Assembly (NCBI RefSeq): GCF_001183985.1
Contig: NZ_LFZW01000001.1
Coordinates: forward strand, 4,155,431 to 4,219,430
DNA: 64,000 bases
Direction of reading: 5' to 3'
Source: Peribacillus loiseleuriae
GTDB lineage: Bacteria > Bacillota > Bacilli > Bacillales > DSM-1321
This document shows positions 52,326 to 62,430 of the stretch, in pieces (position 1 is the first letter of the stretch; every line of letters starts with the position of its first letter). The position numbers and the translations under genes are program-made. Below the pieces are notes generated by a model, which made no database searches, was not told where the DNA came from, and worked only from the letters and a program-made list of their open reading frames with translations.

Positions 52326-52397
52326 TAAGTATACTCGCTAAGTAGATTGGCTATATTAGATGGTTGCGAAGCCCTGTCCCCATTTCCTTCGCACAAA
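52326..52397 (+). repeat. Dispersed repeat family A, partial copy 3
   Basis: GTATACTCGCTAAGTAGATT ... GCGAAGCCCTGTCCCCAT ... CCTTCGCACAAAA is the inverse of the first ~70 bases of the copies at 14884 and 20338. Like copy 2, it ends at a terminator T/A-run. Confidence 0.65.
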
Positions 52398-52428
52398 AAA
52401 CGGCTTCCAACTGGAAAGCCGTTTTTTG
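52395..52428. terminator. Bidirectional terminator of the LarA-type gene
   Basis: AAAAAACGGCTTCCA / TGGAAAGCCGTTTTTT with one extra base in the right arm. T-runs occur in both directions, about 45 bases beyond the minus-strand stop codon. Confidence 0.88.
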
Positions 52429-52473
52429 ATGTTTGCTATCTCTTAAAGCCTACATCCTCACAAAAGATGCCTG

Positions 52474-53724
52474 TTACATCGGCAAGAAATAACCGTCATC
52501 ATCAAATTTCATTTCATGCAGATCCTCTAAGACTTCGATATTTTCTTTATCTTTCAACTCATTAAAAATGACTTCAGATACAAATAACTCTCCAATATGA
52601 AGCGTATTTGGGATTCTTACAATTCTTGCCTCAACTGACGCAACACCCCAGTTAGCGCGTAGAGCTGCTTTTAGTGCTTCTTGGTCATTATCAAGAACAA
52701 TCGGAATTTTAGCTCGATCTAAAAATGTACTTGTGACAACATTTTCATTCATTGCTTTATAATCAATTTTTTCAAAGAGACGCTTAGTTGTTAAATCAGA
52801 TAAGCCAATCCCAAGCGCATTACCATGGCAAGCTTCACTTAAATTCGATGCGATAACATATTTTATATTAGGTTTTGCCGGCTCTTTTACTCCTAATACA
52901 CGAATACGGCCAATAATATTCGTATCCATACCCGTACCACTGTAATTTTTCCCGATTTCATCCACTACTAAAATATCCATTTCATCTACTGGTAAGCTAG
53001 GCATTAATTTAAAGGCTTCCACCAATAATTCCTTTTCACGTTCCTCAACTCGATCTGGCTTGATAGCTTCAATGATTGCAGTTTCCTCATGTGCGTTTTC
53101 AACAATGGCTACTCCAAACAATGTATTTGGTTGTTTAAACACTACTTTTCCAACTTCAGGCATCATATCACGGATTCCTTCAATACCGTATGTGTGTAAT
53201 GCAAGTGCTTGTTTGTGCTTCCCGATTCCAATGGATGCCATTTTCAAGACACCGCTTTCGATTTCCTTCTTAAAATCAGTATGCGGCTTAACACGGCCCA
53301 TGATGATAATTCCATCTGCATGATAAGCATGTTTATCAAGATATACAGGGATGCCAGCTGATGTTACATCAATTTCAACAACTTCCATAGATGAACGAAT
53401 TTCACATCCTGTTGACTTTTCGGTAACCCCTAATCCTTCCAGTACCTCAATTTGCCCTTCAGCTGTCGCTCCACCGTGACTTCCCATTGCAGGAATAATA
53501 AACGGAGTTGCACCTAATTTTTTAATTTCATCAGCAACACTTTTCACGATTAATGGTATATTTGCAATCCCACGACTTCCAACTGTAATCGCAACTTCCA
53601 TTCCAGGCTTAATCTTATCCAATGCTTTCACTTGCTGAAATTGCTCTGTAATCGTTGCAGGGATATTCTCTAAACTTTTCGCTTGGAACTTTTGTCTTAT
53701 TTTTGCAACCTTCGGAAAAGACAT
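52474..53724 (-). CDS. LarA-superfamily (DUF2088) nickel-pincer hydroxyacid racemase/epimerase
   Basis: A 416-residue homologue of lactate racemase LarA. Candidate active-site residues sit in the expected order: Arg51 in VGSRGI, His83 in AMGSHGGAT, His148 in RVKPHTDF, Lys161/Lys169 in KMASIGIGKHK (candidates for the lysine that binds the nickel-pincer cofactor) and His177 soon after. LarA-type enzymes invert an alpha-hydroxyacid by hydride transfer to the pincer nucleotide. The gene lies downstream of a tetronate kinase and a PdxA2-type enzyme, so its substrate is more likely a four-carbon sugar acid than lactate. AAGGAGTG precedes the ATG. larE, whose product helps make the cofactor, is in the same cluster. 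Confidence 0.88.
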   Translation of the reverse strand: MSFPKVAKIRQKFQAKSLENIPATITEQFQQVKALDKIKPGMEVAITVGSRGIANIPLIVKSVADEIKKLGATPFIIPAMGSHGGATAEGQIEVLEGLGVTEKSTGCEIRSSMEVVEIDVTSAGIPVYLDKHAYHADGIIIMGRVKPHTDFKKEIESGVLKMASIGIGKHKQALALHTYGIEGIRDMMPEVGKVVFKQPNTLFGVAIVENAHEETAIIEAIKPDRVEEREKELLVEAFKLMPSLPVDEMDILVVDEIGKNYSGTGMDTNIIGRIRVLGVKEPAKPNIKYVIASNLSEACHGNALGIGLSDLTTKRLFEKIDYKAMNENVVTSTFLDRAKIPIVLDNDQEALKAALRANWGVASVEARIVRIPNTLHIGELFVSEVIFNELKDKENIEVLEDLHEMKFDDDGYFLPM

Positions 53725-53769
53725 TATTCTACACTCCTTTTTAAACTAAATAGTTCAAATACTAAAGTG

Positions 53770-53798
53770 AGCAAGAGATCCATAATTGATCCCTTGCT
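53770..53798 (-). terminator. Intercistronic hairpin between pdxA2-type and larA-type genes
   Basis: AGCAAGGGATC / GATCTCTTGCT (one mismatch) with a 7-base loop. No T-run follows, so it may tune downstream expression or mRNA stability and not stop transcription. Confidence 0.5.
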
Positions 53799-53818
53799 TT
53801 CAAATCATTCTCTTTAAA

Positions 53819-54817
53819 TTATTTCTCAGGAGCTAATTCAATCGCCATACGAATAGCTTCTTTTAACGATAGCTCATCCGCAATGTTTTTCCCAGCGATA
53901 TCAAAAGCTGTTCCATGGTCAACACTTGTACGAATCGTTGGAAGACCGACAGTAATATTTACTCCAGCTTCTAGACCTAATACTTTAATTGGACCATGCC
54001 CTTGATCATGATATTGTGCAACAACAATGTCAAAATCGCCACGTTTTGCTCTAAAGAATAATGTATCTGCTGGAAGTGGTCCTTGTACATTTATTCCTTC
54101 TGCTTGAGCTTTTTCTATAGCTGGAATAATTTTTTCTTCTTCTTCACCATTTCCAAAAAGTCCATTTTCTCCAGCATGAGGGTTAATGCCACAAACTGCG
54201 ATTCGAGGAGATTTAATCCCTGCTTTTTGTAATGTTTCATGTGCAAGTTTAATAACTGTATATTGACGATCAACGTTTATTTTATTAATGGCATCGATAA
54301 TCCCTACATGTGTTGTCACATGAATAACTCTTAAGCCAGGAGCAGATAGCATCATTGCGAAATCTTTTGTATTTGTTAATTCTGCTAATATTTCAGTGTG
54401 ACCTGGATAAATATGACCAGCTTTATGAAGCGCTTCTTTATTTAAAGGTGCTGTACAAATTCCTTGAATTTTTCCTTCGTTCGCATAAGCAATTGCCTTT
54501 TCTAAATAGCGGAATGCAGCATTTCCAGCCTCAGGAGAAACTTGTCCCCATGGTAAATCTTCAGAAACTAAATCTAAATCAATAATATCTATTGTGCCAT
54601 ATTGGCACTTTGCATCTTCAGGATTCAAAATGACATTTAATTGAAGATCTACATTTGTTACATCTAAAGCTCTTTTTAGAATTTTAAGGTCGCCAATTAC
54701 AAATGGACGGCAATTTTCATATATGTTTTTATCATTTAAAGATTTGACGATAATTTCAGGTCCGACTCCTGAGGGATCCCCCATTGTAATCGCGATATTT
54801 GGTTTATTCGTAGTCAT
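53819..54817 (-). CDS. PdxA2-type 4-phospho-tetronate dehydrogenase (PdxA family)
   Basis: A 332-residue PdxA-family enzyme. It shows MGDPSGVGPEIIVKSL, the metal-binding histidines in GHTEILAEL, INPHAGENGLFGNGEE and AQYHDQGHGPIKVLG, and VGLPTIRTSVDHGTAFDIAG. True PdxA acts in pyridoxal phosphate synthesis. The paralogues called PdxA2 sit beside DUF1537 kinases and oxidatively decarboxylate D-threonate- or D-erythronate-4-phosphate to dihydroxyacetone phosphate. The kinase directly upstream makes PdxA2 the better call. AGGAGG precedes the ATG. Confidence 0.9.
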   Translation of the reverse strand: MTTNKPNIAITMGDPSGVGPEIIVKSLNDKNIYENCRPFVIGDLKILKRALDVTNVDLQLNVILNPEDAKCQYGTIDIIDLDLVSEDLPWGQVSPEAGNAAFRYLEKAIAYANEGKIQGICTAPLNKEALHKAGHIYPGHTEILAELTNTKDFAMMLSAPGLRVIHVTTHVGIIDAINKINVDRQYTVIKLAHETLQKAGIKSPRIAVCGINPHAGENGLFGNGEEEEKIIPAIEKAQAEGINVQGPLPADTLFFRAKRGDFDIVVAQYHDQGHGPIKVLGLEAGVNITVGLPTIRTSVDHGTAFDIAGKNIADELSLKEAIRMAIELAPEK

Positions 54818-54848
54818 AATCTTTTCCTCCTGTTATCACATCATATTT

Positions 54849-54900
54849 CGCCAAGCATATGTCGAATGGCAGTTATTTGTAATTCGACATATGCTTGGCG
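54849..54900 (-). promoter_or_regulatory. Perfect 19-bp intercistronic hairpin
   Basis: CGCCAAGCATATGTCGAAT pairs perfectly with ATTCGACATATGCTTGGCG across a 14-base loop (54868-54881), midway between the kinase and PdxA2-type genes. There is no T-run, so it is more likely an mRNA-processing or stability element, or a large operator, than a terminator. Confidence 0.75.
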
Positions 54901-54954
54901 TTGTTCCTGCTCATTTAAAACCTGATCTGTAAAAGCTTTCAATTTTAGTTCATT

Positions 54955-56292
54955 TTATGAATGATTAGTATGTCGCCAATCACTGTTTTTAACATGTGCA
55001 TTTACTTCAGTAATTGTTTGAAGCGCCTTTGCAAGTGCTTGTTCTGTTCCAAATGCACCAGCTTTTGTAACAAGTGGCATACCGTCAAATGAACCACCGA
55101 ACAATTTCCCGTAAGGTATACCAGCCTCTACTTCACCAATTACCCGAATTCCTTCGCCATTTAATACTTGACATGTGGCGCCTGCAATATCCCCACCTGT
55201 TAAAACAGCACCACAAATGTTCTTGCTTTCAATTAATTGACCAGCGATTTCTCCCATAGATTGGGCAATTGTATTACCTACATCAAAGTTCGATAAACCG
55301 AGTTTACGTTGAAGATCCTTTACTCGATTTATCGTCTCTCTCTCACGATTGGTAGTTACGACTAAATCGCCTTTTTCTAGTAATGCTTGACCCGCTTTAA
55401 CAATACGTTCAATTTCAAATTTTCTCCTATCTTCGTAAAAGAATTCTTCAGGAGAAATCACAATTTCTTCAACATTATTTTTCTCTTTTAGATCTTGAAT
55501 TTGTCGATGAGTAATAGAATTTACACTACCAGCTACTACTAACACTGGAAGTCGTTCACCATCCTGTGTCTTACGCAATGGCTCTTCATACTGATCTACG
55601 TTGGAAAGATGATAAGCAATACCAGCTGATCCAACCCAAAGGAAATTCTCATGTAACATTTCAGCAGCTTCGACAATCGTCTTTAATTCTTCATCAGTTG
55701 TTGCATCAACGATGATCATTTTTGACGTTTCACCTGAGGACAACGCATTCATTTTTTCTGATAAATGACTTCTTCCTTTTCGTACATCAGAAATTGAAAT
55801 TAATTCGACTTCCCGCTTACTTTGCTCCTGTAACAATTTTGGTAGGTAACTTTCATTTACTGGGCAGGCGGGATCATTTGCAATTTCGGTTTCCTCTAAT
55901 AGCACACCATTGACATAATGTTTGCCATTTATTGTAATTCTATTACTTTTCGGAAATGCCGGCACTACAAACGAAGTCTTATACTTAAACACATCCATTA
56001 CTGCATCAATTTCTGGGCCAATATTCCCCCTCATGGTTGAATCTACCTTCTTAAAGACTTTTGAAACATCTAATTTGTTCAATTGCGTTGATATATTAAA
56101 AACTACATCATAAGCTTTTCCAGAATTTAATGCACGGCTATCTGAATTTAATACAATGACATCTTCACTTAAATGTGTTGGTTGTAATTGTGTATCTGAA
56201 AATAGTACTGTCGTATTTAAACCTTGTTTTGCAAATTGGACACCAGTATCATTAGCGCCTGTTAAATCATCTGCTATAACAGCTAGTCTCAC
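54955..56292 (-). CDS. Four-carbon acid-sugar kinase (DUF1537 family)
   Basis: A 445-residue kinase. The N-terminal domain opens MRLAVIADDLTGANDTGVQF and includes FKKVDSTMRGNIGPE. The C-terminal nucleotide-binding domain shows AVLTGGDIAGATCQVLNGEG, then EAGIPYGKLFGG and LVTKAGAFG. DUF1537 proteins phosphorylate D-threonate, L-threonate, D-erythronate or 3-oxo-tetronates at C4. Start GTG 56292 has AAAGGGGGT upstream. It heads the kinase-pdxA2-larA operon. A cre-like site lies in the ~325-base leader. Confidence 0.92.
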   Translation of the reverse strand: MRLAVIADDLTGANDTGVQFAKQGLNTTVLFSDTQLQPTHLSEDVIVLNSDSRALNSGKAYDVVFNISTQLNKLDVSKVFKKVDSTMRGNIGPEIDAVMDVFKYKTSFVVPAFPKSNRITINGKHYVNGVLLEETEIANDPACPVNESYLPKLLQEQSKREVELISISDVRKGRSHLSEKMNALSSGETSKMIIVDATTDEELKTIVEAAEMLHENFLWVGSAGIAYHLSNVDQYEEPLRKTQDGERLPVLVVAGSVNSITHRQIQDLKEKNNVEEIVISPEEFFYEDRRKFEIERIVKAGQALLEKGDLVVTTNRERETINRVKDLQRKLGLSNFDVGNTIAQSMGEIAGQLIESKNICGAVLTGGDIAGATCQVLNGEGIRVIGEVEAGIPYGKLFGGSFDGMPLVTKAGAFGTEQALAKALQTITEVNAHVKNSDWRHTNHS

Positions 56293-56478
56293 CTACATCC
56301 CGACCCCCTTTATACGCATTATCAGTTTGTATTGTTTGCGTTTTTTTATTTTATTCCAGTTCATATCGCCTATTTATTATTACATTATAAGTTTTTCTAT
56401 TTGTTTCTCATTTAATTCTGCAACATGCCGATTGTTTTTTTCTTAACCGCTTCATACTACAATTTTATTTCCAAACGC

Positions 56479-56492
56479 TAAAAACGTTTACA
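56479..56492 (-). promoter_or_regulatory. cre-like site upstream of the acid-sugar operon
   Basis: TGTAAACGTTTTTA on the minus strand matches the cre consensus TGWAANCGNTNWCA except at position 13. It lies about 190 bases upstream of the kinase start. Pattern match only. Confidence 0.5.
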
Positions 56493-56601
56493 ATAATAAT
56501 AAATCAAGATGTTGCATTTAGCAATAATTTTTTATGATATTTTTCTTTAACTTTTTATTACGTTGCCATTTGCATCAATTTAAACTTTGATTTGTGCACA
56601 C

Positions 56602-56632
56602 AAAAAAACGCAAGCTGTTATTTTAGCTTGCG
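56602..56632 (-). terminator. Terminator overlapping the regulator's stop codon
   Basis: CGCAAGCT / AGCTTGCG stem followed on the minus strand by TTTTTTTG. The stop codon of the regulator lies in the loop. Confidence 0.9.
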
Positions 56633-58387
56633 CCACAATGTAGAACGGTTAATCCCTAAACGTTTAGCTGCTTTTGATTGATTCAACCCTTCCTCTTCAA
56701 GGACTTTAGTTATCACTTGTTTTTCGATTTCTTCTAATGTGCCACTTATATCGATATCTGTTAACGCACCATTCTTCTCTTGCTGCTCTAATCGTTTAAA
56801 AACTGTTTCAACTTCTTCCTTCTCGATATAATAAGAATGTGATTGTAAAAATAATTGTTCGATTACTTGCTTAAGTTGTTCTACATTTCCTGGCCAATTA
56901 TAGTTGGTAATCTCTTCTAAAGCATCCGGTCGAATCCCGATTACTCGGTTTCCATATTTCGGATGTAATTCAGAAATAAATACATGAACTAAATCCTCAA
57001 TATCTTTTCTGCGTTCTCGGAGTGGTGGTATATGAATTTTTAATTGTGACAATGCATTATACAAATCACGATGAAATGTGCCGTTTTTGACCTTTTCTTC
57101 CATATTATCCTCAGAAGACGCTAGCCATTGCAGCTTTTTATCTTGTTCATTCTTGAATATATGATATAACTCCTTTTGCATATAAGAGTTCAATTTATCG
57201 ATGTTTTTTAAGTAAATGACTCCGTTAACGTATTTTTGAAAAAAGTCTTCGTTCATTAGATCTTTCAGTTGTTCTACACTTAATAAGTCACAATGTAATG
57301 TGATAAATGGTTCATTCATTGTTTTCCTTTTTAAATAAATGGAGTGGGCAGTTAATTCTTTTCCATTTCCCTCTTCCCCCGAAATCCACACAGATTCTTC
57401 ACTTTTACTGTATTGATCTATTTGTTTTAACACCTTCTGAATCAGTTCGCTTTTCCCCGAAAGCGGGATATAAGAAGCGAATGTATGAAATTCTATTGCA
57501 TCCAGGTTCACGTCCCCACCCTGTACAATAGCTTGATTAGGAAGGGGTTTTTCAAAATATAATACAATAGCATCTTCTTTAGGACATGTCGTTATTGTCC
57601 AAAATGAATGATTGATGTGAACTGTTTTTGTTTGCTTTTCACGTGTTAAGGCAGTTTCTTGTATCAATCTTCTTATATCTATCGAATTCTCTAATGTCAT
57701 CCAATGAAATTCTTTATTGAAACGTTCATTCCCATAAACAATTTTCTCTTCTCTATTAAAAACCCCTATTGCCTGTTCGTTACAATCGAGAATAGATTGA
57801 AATAAAGAGACATCCTGTTGCAGCCGCGAGAATAAGCGATATGACCTTCTTGTTTCTTCTAATGCATCAAGAATAGCTTCCTTTCCGGATGTGATGAGAA
57901 CTCCTGTCAGACCTAATTGCTTAGCAGCTTGAACCGTAACCACATCTCCGATTATCACCTCATAGCCATTTTCTTTAAAACTCATTAATTTTTCTTTAAC
58001 CTCGATATCTTTTGTAATCGTTAATGTTTTAATGTCTAAATCAAGAAGCTTACATATCGTAGCAGCACCTTGTGTAATATTCGAGAATCCAACGATTGCA
58101 GCTTTACCTGAAAATCCTTTTACAAGTGTTAAAATGCGTAATACATCATAGCCAGACACCTGAATGTCAATCACTGGTATAGATACAGCCTCCTGAATAA
58201 TTGAAGCTGTACCGCCACGGCTGATTATGACATGATAGCCATTTTTTTCAGCATCCTTTGCAATAGCCACTCCTTCATATAAATTACCTAACTCGATTTG
58301 TAATTGGATATCTTCAACTTCTTGATTGATCTCTTTCATCATTTCAAACAGTCCCTCATAAGGGACAATTGCCAATGCTTTAATCAT
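56618..58387 (-). CDS. PrpR_N/AAA+/Fis regulator with a degenerate sigma-54 domain
   Basis: A 589-residue regulator. Residues 1-190 are a PrpR_N-type sensor (GYHVIISRGGTASIIQEAVS, IPVIDIQVSGYDVLRI, KAAIVGFSNITQGA), as in propionate/citrate-type activators. A PAS-like part follows (SILDCNEQAIGVFNREEKIV). The AAA+ region (~305-520) keeps a Walker A relative (GEEGNGKELTA, ~334-344) and IPPLRERRKDIEDLV. However, the GAFTGA sigma-54-contact loop is missing and Walker B reads GVIYLKNID instead of GTLFLDEI. A Fis HTH ends the protein (LNQSKAAKRLGINRSTLWRK). It probably acts with sigma-A on the acid-sugar genes that flank it. Confidence 0.88.
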   Translation of the reverse strand: MIKALAIVPYEGLFEMMKEINQEVEDIQLQIELGNLYEGVAIAKDAEKNGYHVIISRGGTASIIQEAVSIPVIDIQVSGYDVLRILTLVKGFSGKAAIVGFSNITQGAATICKLLDLDIKTLTITKDIEVKEKLMSFKENGYEVIIGDVVTVQAAKQLGLTGVLITSGKEAILDALEETRRSYRLFSRLQQDVSLFQSILDCNEQAIGVFNREEKIVYGNERFNKEFHWMTLENSIDIRRLIQETALTREKQTKTVHINHSFWTITTCPKEDAIVLYFEKPLPNQAIVQGGDVNLDAIEFHTFASYIPLSGKSELIQKVLKQIDQYSKSEESVWISGEEGNGKELTAHSIYLKRKTMNEPFITLHCDLLSVEQLKDLMNEDFFQKYVNGVIYLKNIDKLNSYMQKELYHIFKNEQDKKLQWLASSEDNMEEKVKNGTFHRDLYNALSQLKIHIPPLRERRKDIEDLVHVFISELHPKYGNRVIGIRPDALEEITNYNWPGNVEQLKQVIEQLFLQSHSYYIEKEEVETVFKRLEQQEKNGALTDIDISGTLEEIEKQVITKVLEEEGLNQSKAAKRLGINRSTLWRKLK

Positions 58388-58748
58388 TTTCCTTCACCTT
58401 CACCTTCTGTTACTAAAATCAACATAAATATTTCTTAGTAATTGCTTACCTTTTTTTGAAGAAATATAAAAAAATCCCTTTCAGGCTTAAGTTAGAGAAC
58501 TTCCCTATAGCTATTTACCTCAAAAGGATTTTATTATTTGGCTCTTTCCTAGAAAATTGTCGCTTTTTACTTTTGAACCGCAGGCAAGTAGATGTATGCC
58601 TTGTCAGGCCTTTCAGAAAGATAGAGGCGCTCCTAGACAAATTCATTTGACCATCTGCAGCAATTTTTCTAAAAAAGGCGGTATAAAAGCAACATTATTG
58701 GGAAAACAACCTATTATTTCTAGTGATCCTTTTTTTGATAAACTTCCT
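58388..58748. other. Gap between larE and the regulator gene
   Basis: About 360 bases. An open frame (58557-58769) has two Cys-x-x-Cys-like residues but no ribosome site, and I do not accept it as a gene. Confidence 0.4.
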
Positions 58749-59558
58749 TTAGTTAAGACTTGTTGTTAATACTTTATTCATGCTGCCACTTACATAGCCT
58801 TTAAGATCAAGGGTGACATATTTATATCCGAATCGTTGAAGGTTTTCTATGATATCTTCATGGTTAGTTAAAACTACCTGCATATCTTGAGGTTCTACTT
58901 CAATCCGAGCAATCTCTTGATGAGTTCGAACGCGCACTTGTCTAATCCCTAATCCCTTTATATAAGCCTCCGATTTTTCAACCTTTGTTAATTTTTCTTG
59001 CGTAATTTTTTCACCATATGCAATTCGTGAAGATAAACAGGCAAACGATGGTTTTTCCCAAGTAGGCAAATTTAATTGTTTTGAAAGTTCACGAATTTCT
59101 TCTTTATAAAGATTCGCCTCTTGGAGCGGCCCACGGACACCATGTTCCTTGGCTGCACGGACTCCAGGACGATGTTCACTCATATCATCGGCAATTAAAC
59201 CATATACAACGTTTTTAAAACCCTTCTGATGCATAATCGGAACGATTTGTTCGAACAACCCATTTTTACAAAAATAACAACGGTTTCGGTCATTTTCTGC
59301 GTAGCCCGGTATATTCAGTTCAGAAGTTTCAATAACTTGATGTATTGCACCAATCATTTTGGCTAGCTTCTTAGCCTCTTCTAATTCACTTGAAGGGTAT
59401 GTTTCAGAATCAGCCGTAACAGCCAAGACTTTTTCAACTCCTAAAACATCAACCGCAACTTTTAATAACAACGTACTATCGACTCCACCAGAAAAAGCAA
59501 CAACAACATTGTCCATCTCATTTAAAATTTGTTTCAGTCGTTCATACTTCTCATTCAT
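58749..59558 (-). CDS. larE: LarE, ATP-dependent sulfur transferase for nickel-pincer cofactor synthesis
   Basis: A 269-residue PP-loop enzyme. SGGVDST (residues 23-29) binds ATP. RCYFCK (Cys94, Cys97), R-P-G-V-R-A-A-K-E-H-G and SFACLSSRIAYGEKIT follow. Cys174 corresponds to the cysteine whose sulfur LarE donates to the nicotinate-derived pincer (Cys176 in Lactiplantibacillus). The cofactor serves LarA-type racemases, and one is encoded 5 kb away on the same strand. larB and larC, the other cofactor genes, are not in the window. GGTGGAATTAGG precedes the ATG. Confidence 0.92.
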   Translation of the reverse strand: MNEKYERLKQILNEMDNVVVAFSGGVDSTLLLKVAVDVLGVEKVLAVTADSETYPSSELEEAKKLAKMIGAIHQVIETSELNIPGYAENDRNRCYFCKNGLFEQIVPIMHQKGFKNVVYGLIADDMSEHRPGVRAAKEHGVRGPLQEANLYKEEIRELSKQLNLPTWEKPSFACLSSRIAYGEKITQEKLTKVEKSEAYIKGLGIRQVRVRTHQEIARIEVEPQDMQVVLTNHEDIIENLQRFGYKYVTLDLKGYVSGSMNKVLTTSLN

Positions 59559-59642
59559 CCTAATTCCACCTATCTCTATATTTTCAAACTATTTTTAGTG
59601 TATAATGCGGTAAATCTATTGTCGGCAAAATCAACCTGTTTT

Positions 59643-59830
59643 ATAGAGGTTGTTTATAAAGCCCGGTATAAATAGCTTACGAATTGCAACAAAGCACATT
59701 CGTGACCTTCTGTTAAAATCGCGCACGTCCTGTGCAAATCCACTCTTCACGTTTTACCGCATACGCAAAAGGTTAGAGTCTATCGCTTCTCGGCTCTTTT
59801 CATCCGCCTTTTTGAACATGCACTTATAGG
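59643..59830 (-). repeat. MITE-like repeat family C, copy 2
   Basis: It runs AGAGGTTGTTTATAAAGCCC ... TTTTACCGCATACGCAAAAG ... CTTTTTGAACATGCACTT. It is related to 28631-28746 and 59956-60107, and longer by an inserted stretch near 59700. Confidence 0.7.
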
Positions 59831-59955
59831 GATTTCTTATCGACCCTAAAAAGAATTTGTGCATTTTGCAACACTATTCGATTATAAGCGAATTTCTACC
59901 AAAGTAAAAGTAGTTATTAAAGCGATTCCAAAAGTATTTCTTGTTACATTATGTT

Positions 59956-60107
59956 TTAGAGGATGTTCAAAAAGTCCGGTATAAATAGCTATCGAATTTC
60001 TCCGTCACTTTGGTCCTCACGTATTACCGCATACGCGAAAGGTATAGAGACTATCACTCCTCGAACTTCTCGGCTCTTTTTATCCTCCTTTTTGAACGCG
60101 CACTTCT
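59956..60107 (-). repeat. MITE-like repeat family C, copy 3
   Basis: It runs from AGAGGATGTTCAAAAAG to CTTTTTGAACGCGCACTTCT, with inverted GTTCAAAAAG / CTTTTTGAAC ends and a conserved core (TACCGCATACGCGAAAGG). It lies about 125 bases from copy 2 in the same orientation. Confidence 0.75.
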
Positions 60108-60145
60108 AATATTTTTATAGAATATATAAACTGGTCAGATTGGCG

Positions 60146-60183
60146 AAAAGGGGTTCGGAATGAAACCATTCCAAACCCCTTTT
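60146..60183 (-). terminator. Terminator of the GntP gene
   Basis: AAAAGGGGTTTGGAATG pairs with CATTCCGAACCCCTTTT (one mismatch), about 50 bases beyond the stop codon on the minus strand. Confidence 0.9.
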
Positions 60184-60230
60184 ATCTACAATCTGAGCAA
60201 TGTGACACCATTGCCTTTTCACTTTTATTT

Positions 60231-61577
60231 TTAAAGAACTAAATCTAATAATAAAGTACATACCAATCCTGATACAGCAACAATGGTAGATAGTACAGTA
60301 TACGTTCCAAATGCTTCTTTCAAGGTCATCCCCAATGACTCTTTGACCATCCAGAATCCAGCATCATTAACATGTGACGCAATTGCACTGCCGGCTCCAG
60401 TTGCAAGTGTTACTAATTCTAAGTTAACGCCGGGAATTGTAGCAAGTGATGGAAGAACCAACCCTGCAGTTGTTAAAGTAGCAACCGTTCCAGATCCTAA
60501 GCAGATTCGTAAGATTGCTGCGACAGTCCATGCAAAGAAAATAGGTGACATATGAGAACCTTCAAAGATTTTAGCAACATAATCACCAACGCCGCCATCA
60601 ATAAGTACTTGTTTTAACGCACCGCCACCACCAATAATGAGGAGTAGCATCCCCAAAGAATTAATGGCTGATGAACATGAATTCATTAAATTCTTGATTG
60701 GAACATTTCTACGAAGTCCCATTGTATAGATCGCTAACAATAAAGAAAGCAACATAGCAGTCGAAGAGTTACCGATAAAACGAATAATTTTTACTAATAT
60801 ATTATCGTCAAATCCCAAAGCCGGTTGAATCATATCAATCGCGGCACCTAAAGCCATTAAAATAACAGGGAATAATGCTGTAAAGACACTGATACCAAAA
60901 CCAGGTGTTTCTTCTAGTTTAAATGTTTTTTGAATACCAAAAGACTCACTGCCTTCTCTAGTAAACGCAGTCGGTACAATTTTTTTAGCAAGCTTAGGAT
61001 ACAAAATACCTGCTAAAATAACAGTTGGTATAGCGACAATGATTCCGTAAATTAAAACCAAGCCGATATTTGCACCATATTCTGCCGCTACTGCTGTTGG
61101 ACCTGGATGCGGAGGTAAGAATGCATGTGTTGCTAAGGCAGCAGTAACCATAGGAAGACCTAAACGTACAATAGAAATTTTTAATTCTTTTGCAATTGAG
61201 AAGATAATTGGAACTAGTAACACAATCGTTACTTCAAGAAATAATGCGATACCCACAATAAATGAAGCAAATAAAACAGCCCATTGAATTCTTTTTTCCC
61301 CAAATTTGTTAATTAACGTTGTGGCAATACGATTGGCTCCACCTGCATCTGCAATTAACCTGCCGAGCATTGCACCCATTCCAAAGATTAATGCAATATG
61401 ACCAAGTGTTCCTCCTAAACCGCTTTCAATTGATTTCATAACATCCGCCATAGGCATTCCCAATGCTAACGCTACGATGACTGAAACAATGATTAATGAA
61501 ACAAATGTGTTTAATTTGAAACCCATAATTAAAATAAGTAATAAAAGTACCCCTATTGCTATAATTAATAACGGCAT
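60231..61577 (-). CDS. GntP-family gluconate/acid-sugar:H+ symporter
   Basis: A 448-residue permease with about 12-14 helices: FKLNTFVSLIIVSVIVALAL, GLGGTLGHIALIFGMGAMLG, FLPPHPGPTAVAAEYGANIG (the GntP-family PPHPGP motif), and near the end LGSGTVATLTTAGLV and ASHVNDAGFWMVKE. GntP carriers import gluconate and related sugar acids. Next to a tetronate kinase and a PdxA2-type enzyme it is the likely uptake system for the cluster's substrate. AGGAGG precedes the ATG. A cre-like site lies about 165 bases upstream. Confidence 0.92.
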   Translation of the reverse strand: MPLLIIAIGVLLLLILIMGFKLNTFVSLIIVSVIVALALGMPMADVMKSIESGLGGTLGHIALIFGMGAMLGRLIADAGGANRIATTLINKFGEKRIQWAVLFASFIVGIALFLEVTIVLLVPIIFSIAKELKISIVRLGLPMVTAALATHAFLPPHPGPTAVAAEYGANIGLVLIYGIIVAIPTVILAGILYPKLAKKIVPTAFTREGSESFGIQKTFKLEETPGFGISVFTALFPVILMALGAAIDMIQPALGFDDNILVKIIRFIGNSSTAMLLSLLLAIYTMGLRRNVPIKNLMNSCSSAINSLGMLLLIIGGGGALKQVLIDGGVGDYVAKIFEGSHMSPIFFAWTVAAILRICLGSGTVATLTTAGLVLPSLATIPGVNLELVTLATGAGSAIASHVNDAGFWMVKESLGMTLKEAFGTYTVLSTIVAVSGLVCTLLLDLVL

Positions 61578-61753: not shown

Positions 61754-62430
61754 AAAAAATACAGAAATATAACAAACTAAGACCATTCACCCTTTTTTAC
61801 CCAATGATTCATTTAATTTAATACAAAGGTAATTCATTTAAAATAGAAAGCGTTCTATGGAAGTCTGTCATCTTAGCGATAATATGTCCTTGATCATGCT
61901 AAAGAGATAATATCGCAACATATTTTGCATTTAATGCGTAGAAGAATACAACATTTTCCGGAACTGTTGATTATCGCATCACCATGTGAACGTAAAATAT
62001 TTTATACTCTCCGAATAATCTTGTCAAGTGGACAAAATGGATTGTGTTCGTTTATTTTTTTAACAATTATCATTTATTCATTACAAATCATGTAGTTCTA
62101 TTTCACCTCATTTTTCGATAGGTAGGGTTTTGACCACTATTGCCACATAGATTATTGACTTGTGGTTATAAAAAGCCATTCTATTTTTATCCTTCATACA
62201 ATCTATCGTTGGGCTAGTGGGATTGGTAATAGAACTGTTGCATAATTAACCACCAATATTCTAACAAGCCCAAGTCCTCCTAGCTGTAGTTTTTTAAAAC
62301 CTTAATAATAAAAACTTTAAAAAGACTTTTCTACTATACTTTTCTTCCTGAAGTTTTCGGTAATGTTCATATGGCTTAAAAACATAACATAAGATAGCCA
62401 GCATTAGTTAGGGATTCTAGAGTAGAATAA
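61754..62430. other. Long upstream region of gntP, no gene
   Basis: About 680 AT-rich bases. Apart from the cre-like site at its left edge and the symmetric word near 61845, nothing is recognised. Confidence 0.45.

Follow-up and report, generated by a model that had tools for sequence, protein, structure and literature searches.

The combination of a DUF1537 kinase and a PdxA-type dehydrogenase is reportedly the D-threonate route described by Zhang et al. in 2016, and the names of the Protein Data Bank (PDB) entry 6e85 and of NCBIfam models agree with this assignment. A route that joins a DUF1537 kinase to an aldolase serves D-erythronate and L-threonate, as stated in a passage of PMC10580937. 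Within the LarA superfamily, whose enzymes carry the nickel-pincer nucleotide (NPN) cofactor, NPN-dependent gluconate 2-epimerases have been published (passages of PMC7583248 and PMC11770544), and C2-epimerisation of 4-deoxy-threonate/erythronate has been measured for other LarA homologues (a passage of PMC11770544). Here we describe a gene cluster of Peribacillus loiseleuriae (contig NZ_LFZW01000001.1) in which these families meet. The cluster lies in a 64,000-nucleotide stretch, referred to as the window; gene positions are window positions, and all cluster features listed are on the minus strand. We consider it probable that the cluster serves the uptake and breakdown of four-carbon sugar acids and that its LarA homologue, a member of NPN isomerase group 22, acts as a tetronate 2-epimerase, converting D-erythronate to D-threonate, which the kinase and PdxA would then take to dihydroxyacetone phosphate.

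Results

Composition of the cluster

The six genes are transcribed in the order gntP, larE, PrpR_N regulator, DUF1537 kinase, pdxA and larA homologue, and both the open reading frame (ORF) coordinates and the profile matches agree with an earlier note, made from the sequence alone, that had placed genes of these families on one strand. The GntP-family permease, a putative tetronate importer (60231..61577; TIGR00791, 593 bits, cut-off 293), is followed by LarE, the sulfur insertase of NPN cofactor synthesis (58749..59558; TIGR00268, 371 bits, cut-off 150), and by a PrpR_N-type AAA+ regulator with a Fis-type helix-turn-helix, recognised by family profiles (56618..58387). Next come a DUF1537 four-carbon acid sugar kinase with SBD_N and NBD_C domains that is closest to D-threonate kinase (54955..56292) and a PdxA2-type oxidative decarboxylase, the proposed D-threonate-4-phosphate dehydrogenase (53819..54817; PF04166, 382 bits; the general PdxA model TIGR00557, 379 bits, over its cut-off of 290). 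The last gene encodes the LarA-superfamily protein of 416 amino acids, placed in group 22 by NCBIfam and proposed to be the tetronate 2-epimerase (52474..53724).

The LarA homologue is linked to the kinase and PdxA

The link between the LarA homologue and the kinase and PdxA exceeds chance. Our main locus set comprised the best 80 of 99 scan matches, 45 of them at 55% identity or more and 35 below. Kinase and PdxA both lie within 10 kb of the LarA homologue in 35 of the 45 closer relatives and in none of the 35 more distant ones. With the window counted in, there are 36 kinase-bearing loci; pdxA and larA are immediate same-strand neighbours in 30 of them, and all three genes share one strand in 35. 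The association persists across differing gene orders and across the exchange of GntP for a TRAP transporter (among the 45 close loci, GntP in 19, TRAP in 13, either in 32). The solved binding proteins nearest to the DctP of a sister locus are 4pdd, 4p9k and 4pdh; D-erythronate is reported to be the ligand of some of these, which was given no weight as evidence here.

DUF1537 was found in 94 of the 398 genomes of an evenly drawn phylum sample, and chance neighbours should therefore be rare. Group 22 exceeded its cut-off in 85 genomes of this sample. Of the phylum survey's 120 fetched regions, several end at contig ends, and the regions excluded include at least G002:C63, which passes the cut-off only if its neighbours are counted in. 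Kinase and PdxA lie within 9 kb for 2 of 6 proteins at 48–55% identity and for 3 of 115 below 48%, and one locus outside the window's clade (L120) has kinase, pdxA and larA three in a row. Two loci, L172 and L049, were scored as linked by distance with their group-22 genes on the opposite strand, and L047, where the group-22 gene is split or fused, was scored as unlinked. A family survey yielded 30 group-22 places over the cut-off in other genomes, of which 20 were fetched; L106, L107, L108 and L110 proved to be close relatives on contigs already counted and were not recounted, and none of the other 16, all below 48% identity, is linked to the kinase and PdxA.

A rapidly built tree of 176 rows, whose only branch support comes from the Shimodaira–Hasegawa-like approximate likelihood ratio test (SH-aLRT), held 23 linked and 110 unlinked rows and 43 that were set aside for short flanks or because only one of the two genes was seen. 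The association needs 9 changes on this tree, against a mean of 21.4 after shuffling, and 0 of 500 shuffles gave a value as low. The window falls in a starred clade of 31 rows, 20 linked, 6 unlinked and 5 set aside. The combination of LarA, DUF1537 and PdxA2, for which the earlier note had proposed a neighbourhood survey, is conserved in many genomes and, by one record, occurs in a second phylum: a plasmid of Rubrobacter indicoceani (Actinomycetota) carries the kinase, pdxA and a group-22 larA consecutively, with a 4-base overlap between pdxA and larA, and the encoded LarA keeps all the residues discussed below, Thr-Asp included. Relatives occur in 111 plasmid records, four of which were opened; the Rubrobacter record is linked and the other three are unlinked.

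Family placement and residues of the LarA homologue

On NF052515, the model for NPN isomerase group 22, the window protein scores 544 bits over a cut-off of 400 and covers profile positions 1–390 of 392. It reaches 34 bits on Lar_N, 22 bits on DUF362 (under the cut-off of 24) and less than 30 bits on each of the LarAH10 model and the two malate racemase models, and at an E-value of 0.001 it does not match the lactate racemase model NF033504 (cut-off 460). We rejected a lactate racemase identity, given the wide margin of the group-22 match and the silence of NF033504; the expectation that lactate is not the substrate is borne out by this distance from true lactate racemases. Our literature searches found no substrate for group 22.

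Residues were compared in an alignment of 51 rows, made up of the window protein and 50 relatives, of which 49 come from the set of 80 loci and one is the group-22 paralogue in this genome; they are numbered with the initial Met as 1. R51, H83, H148, K161 and H177 are invariant in all 51 and correspond to R75, H108, H174, K184 and H200 of LarA, so the Arg, three His and Lys that had been read as standing in LarA-like order indeed do so. Their spacing is 32, 65, 13 and 16 in the window protein and 32, 66, 10 and 16 in the genome's canonical LarA. H83 and H148, the equivalents of the catalytic H108 and H174, are kept in 133 of 133 rows, and hhalign aligns both to LarA histidines. For the NPN-binding R75, K184 and H200, the arginine was aligned by a weak hhalign match (18%), and K161 and H177 were assigned from spacing. 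We predict from this pattern that the window protein uses NPN.

The two residues after the second His are thought to govern LarA specificity, according to a passage of PMC7583248, and in the window protein they are Thr-Asp. The second of these residues is Asp in all 23 rows linked to the kinase and PdxA versus 29 of 110 unlinked rows, the rows being related and not independent.

Kinase, PdxA and cofactor genes

Among NCBIfam models the kinase matches D-threonate kinase DtnK (NF047819) best, at 357 bits, the next being 3-oxo-tetronate kinase at 192 (three models), and the protein is best described as one that would work like a D-threonate kinase. The solved chains nearest to PdxA are 4jqp (448 bits) and 6e85 (314 bits). 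Genome-wide, the only DUF1537 gene and the only intact pdxA found are those of the window.

The genome has larB, larC1, larC2 and larE, with larB and larC lying outside the window. Two larE genes score over the cut-off, one in the window and the other in a cluster at C1:2.28 Mb, and the nickel-insertion gene larC was found genome-wide only in that cluster. There are three LarA homologues. The canonical LarA at C1:0.51 Mb (G000:C1:509661-510263; L086:9644-10903; NF033504, 556 bits) adjoins a CdaR-type regulator, a glycerate kinase and a KdgT-like transporter. In its substrate loop the Trp is followed by Gln, as in the glycerate-preferring LarAH43 described in a passage of PMC11770544, and is perhaps a glycerate rather than a lactate racemase. 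The second group-22 protein (C1:2275245-2276408; L087), 43% identical to that of the window, is accompanied by a D-mannonate-oxidoreductase-like short-chain dehydrogenase/reductase, a gluconokinase-like FGGY kinase, a sugar-binding protein, a transketolase, larE, larB, larC1 and larC2, and is perhaps an epimerase of a longer aldonate.

LarA as an optional extension of the kinase-PdxA module

The converse question was addressed with the 21 top-scoring DUF1537 places of the phylum sample, namely the window and 20 fetched places, four of which gave shortened regions. PdxA adjoins the kinase in all 20 of the other places, and a PrpR-type regulator is present in 15; LarA, searched with the group-22 and canonical profiles, stands beside none. 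Regulator, kinase and PdxA form a stand-alone module, and LarA is an occasional, optional extension of it, because none of these 20 other modules has one. Such an optional LarA fits an enzyme that broadens the range of isomers used.

Four of the 20 LarA-free modules (L238, L240, L242 and L244) have, between regulator and kinase, a gene of about 385–396 amino acids that matches an altronate/galactarate dehydratase profile, possibly another add-on enzyme. At L172:323-3918, a LarA homologue that belongs to a different group comes immediately after DUF1537 and pdxA, scoring best on a malate racemase model and below every cut-off; the pathway may there have taken on a second lineage of LarA.

Transcription, regulation and surroundings

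The kinase, pdxA and the larA homologue are probably read as a single transcript, because hairpins follow both the regulator gene and larA. The first is a terminator-like hairpin of 10 pairs (56607..56634), and the second, a probable terminator, combines a hairpin with a T run (52395..52427; −21.2 kcal/mol for 52390-52440, z −4.9); the hairpin scan as a whole gave 7 sites against 5.4 expected. Upstream of the kinase, at a distance of about 230 bases, is the palindrome TTGCTAAATGCAA (56512..56524). Its pattern, TTGC-N5-GCAA, occurs in 23 of 35 kinase upstream regions, against a background of 0.03 per 420 bases (five loci), and close kinship of the loci accounts for part of this recurrence. The palindrome may be the site of the PrpR_N regulators.

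The PrpR_N family assignment of the regulator stands, with the correction that the GAFTGA motif of sigma-54 activators is absent, both from the window regulator and from the sister regulators that adjoin the kinase. Among 43 listed regulators the motif occurs only in the extra regulator of L009 and in three from the distant loci L071 and L083. Without GAFTGA in their AAA+ domain, PrpR_N regulators should not act via sigma-54. Sites resembling −24/−12 promoters of the sigma-54 type number 21 in the window versus 22.5 expected by chance, and on these two grounds sigma-54 control of the cluster was rejected.

A decayed fragment of a second pdxA-like gene lies just upstream of gntP (61824..61964). 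No RNA family reached its gathering score within 45–64 kb of the window. In window positions 1-46500, 10 of the 11 ORFs of at least 300 amino acids were scanned and gave an AcrB-type pump, a glycoside hydrolase 2, an AraC-type regulator, two amino-acid permeases, an MFS transporter, asparagine synthase, FtsW/RodA, a metallophosphoesterase and lysylphosphatidylglycerol synthase, with nothing unusual.

Discussion

D-Erythronate (2R,3R) and D-threonate (2S,3R) differ at C2 alone, the carbon inverted by NPN enzymes, and share the centre at C3, the site of oxidation by PdxA-type enzymes; the D-threonate arrangement is that of 4-hydroxy-L-threonine phosphate, the classic PdxA substrate. In the pathway we propose, GntP, or TRAP in some sister loci, would import the tetronate, and the NPN-loaded group-22 LarA homologue would interconvert the two acids, inverting C2 as a hydride passes to the cofactor and back. 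The DUF1537 kinase would phosphorylate D-threonate at C4 and so draw the freely reversible epimerisation forward; PdxA2 would then oxidise C3, and decarboxylation would yield dihydroxyacetone phosphate. LarE would supply its cofactor step locally, LarB and LarC coming from the cluster at C1:2.28 Mb. Conversion of D-erythronate to D-threonate is the natural guess because the PdxA route is that of D-threonate and the aldolase route that of D-erythronate; a C2 epimerase would let the shorter PdxA route use D-erythronate.

The earlier note had taken DUF1537 with PdxA2 to be the route for both acids. For D-threonate this agrees with the route reported by Zhang et al. and with the model and PDB names. 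D-Erythronate is instead tied to the aldolase route in the passage of PMC10580937. That an enzyme of the cluster epimerises an acid which the kinase cannot use is still the simplest account and matches the conserved tie to the kinase and PdxA, with activity, substrate and NPN content all predicted.

Several observations weigh against the tetronate 2-epimerase. The kinase score falls short of the NF047819 cut-off of 450 bits. PdxA has its top NCBIfam score, 406 bits, on the 4-hydroxythreonine-4-phosphate dehydrogenase model NF002992 (cut-off 470); the model for D-threonate-4-phosphate dehydrogenase PdxA2, NF002891, is third of seven at 359 bits (cut-off 583). Its top solved chain, 4jqp, is named 4-hydroxythreonine-4-phosphate dehydrogenase; the match to 6e85, which bears the name D-threonate 4-phosphate dehydrogenase, speaks for the proposal. 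Asp72, listed as catalytic in LarA in a passage of Desguin et al. 2020 (PMC7583248), has no counterpart in the window protein: the four positions before R51 are T/A, V/A, G and S, with one Asp in 133 rows. For the catalytic Lys298, K259, invariant in the 51 rows, is a candidate counterpart. A sequence search with the window protein found no solved LarA structure, nor did one with the 51-row profile. The hhalign comparison with six canonical LarA proteins gave a weak match (probability 18%, E 0.0013) confined to the N-terminal part; the mechanism is therefore transferred by motif alone. As to context, the module does not need LarA, and 10 of the 45 close relatives have no kinase in reach (L007, L028, L029, L030, L031, L033, L037, L039, L044 and L047), L039 retaining a PdxA. 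Gene context is also not always helpful for LarA homologues, as a passage of Desguin et al. (PMC7583248) remarks.

Another reading, for which several loci speak but which we rate as unlikely, is that the LarA homologue takes a different hydroxy acid (a C5/C6 aldonate or glycerate) as its substrate and merely has regulation and uptake in common with the tetronate genes. L007 (9046-9997) and L028 (9167-10000), from two strains of the same genus as the window, have lost the kinase and keep a decayed pdxA, yet their ORFs for larA, larE, the regulator and gntP are intact. The LarA homologue of L031 (5937-11269) lies inside a CdaR-glycerate kinase-MFS operon, as does that of L049, where the locus's own regulator-kinase-pdxA operon stands opposite, about 7 kb off. 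Distant group-22 loci include altronate/galactarate-type dehydratases (8 of 35) and mandelate-racemase-like enzymes (6 of 35), and some have arabinonate or mannonate dehydratases. Such a substrate is, however, at odds with the 35 of 45 close relatives in which kinase and PdxA are near LarA, in several gene orders and with one further record in a second phylum, and the genome already has a separate canonical LarA by a glycerate kinase and a separate group-22 protein by gluconokinase-like genes. We regard it as distinctly improbable that the enzyme works on the other pair, L-threonate and L-erythronate, or uses hydride transfer for a reaction that does not invert C2. The enantiomer is not fixed by gene context, but, judging by how 4-hydroxy-L-threonine phosphate is configured, PdxA-type chemistry depends on a C3 centre like that of D-threonate. 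The absence of an Asp72 counterpart would suit another reaction, which Desguin et al. allow, in a passage of PMC7583248, for groups without the catalytic residues; both histidines and the NPN-binding trio are nevertheless invariant across the 51 rows.

Epimerisation of the phosphorylated acid, downstream of the kinase, would be compatible with the gene order and with the action of PdxA on phosphates, and a phosphorylated aldose has been modelled into the density of a single-histidine LarA homologue of another group, a model that its authors call 'highly speculative' (a passage of PMC12611868). The LarA homologues whose measured activity is described in passages of PMC7583248 and PMC11770544 nevertheless act on free hydroxy acids, and we rate this order of events as very improbable. 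We give scarcely any credence to the idea that the kinase and PdxA salvage 4-hydroxythreonine for vitamin B6 with LarA as an incidental neighbour, even though some DUF1537 proteins phosphorylate 4-hydroxythreonine (passages of PMC7954711 and PMC10971088) and PdxA scores highest on models of the matching dehydrogenase. A role in vitamin B6 synthesis is unlikely because the genome has pdxS and pdxJ was not found there, which would make 4-hydroxythreonine phosphate a dead end by the known route; the GntP or TRAP transporter of 32 of the 45 close loci also argues against it.

On balance we lean, if only slightly, towards regarding the window protein as the first nickel-pincer tetronate 2-epimerase and the cluster as a further D-erythronate route, in which the acid is epimerised, phosphorylated and oxidatively decarboxylated; among the open-licence papers searched, we found no tetronate epimerase in print. 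What is new is the predicted role; the superfamily, which comprises isomerases of sugar acids and hydroxy acids, is known, and the system is not of a new kind. The suggestion that it would be new for the nickel-pincer enzymes is retained in this narrower form, since publications already describe NPN epimerases of sugar acids and the C2-epimerisation of 4-deoxy-tetronates. Group 22 also has an NCBIfam model already, and some of its other members adjoin genes for other sugar acids.

If true, the proposal would give a function to part of group 22 and show the group to be a sugar-acid epimerase family whose members can be sorted by the genes beside them. Many LarA groups have no known substrate, and one of them would gain a precise, cheaply testable reaction and a pathway. 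The logic would be that of an add-on, one nickel enzyme widening the kinase-PdxA core to a second stereoisomer, and the sister group-22 enzymes beside gluconokinase-like, altronate-type dehydratase and other genes would make a rational set for mapping how substrate choice shifts.

Comparison with known systems

GntE, the NPN-dependent D-gluconate 2-epimerase (LarA groups 19 and 20), resembles the window protein in its superfamily, in the C2 inversion of a sugar acid that we propose here and in the polar residues after the catalytic His, E-V/S in GntE and T-D in the window protein (GntE from passages of PMC7583248 and PMC11770544); it differs in its LarA group and in its six-carbon substrate. 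LarA itself (group 1) has the same order of Arg, His, His, Lys and His at near-equal spacing, and larB, larC and larE are present in the genome, but the window protein has neither an NF033504 match nor an Asp72 counterpart and carries Thr-Asp in place of the Phe-Phe loop of LarA. The DUF1537/PdxA2 pathway for D-threonate, reportedly described by Zhang et al. 2016, uses the same kinase and dehydrogenase families, to which the window adds an epimerase and a cofactor gene. The DUF1537/aldolase route (ltnD, otnK, otnI, denD and otnC, in a passage of PMC10580937) likewise uses a DUF1537 kinase for D-erythronate; in place of its dehydrogenases, isomerase and aldolase, the window would substitute a redox-neutral epimerisation followed by PdxA.

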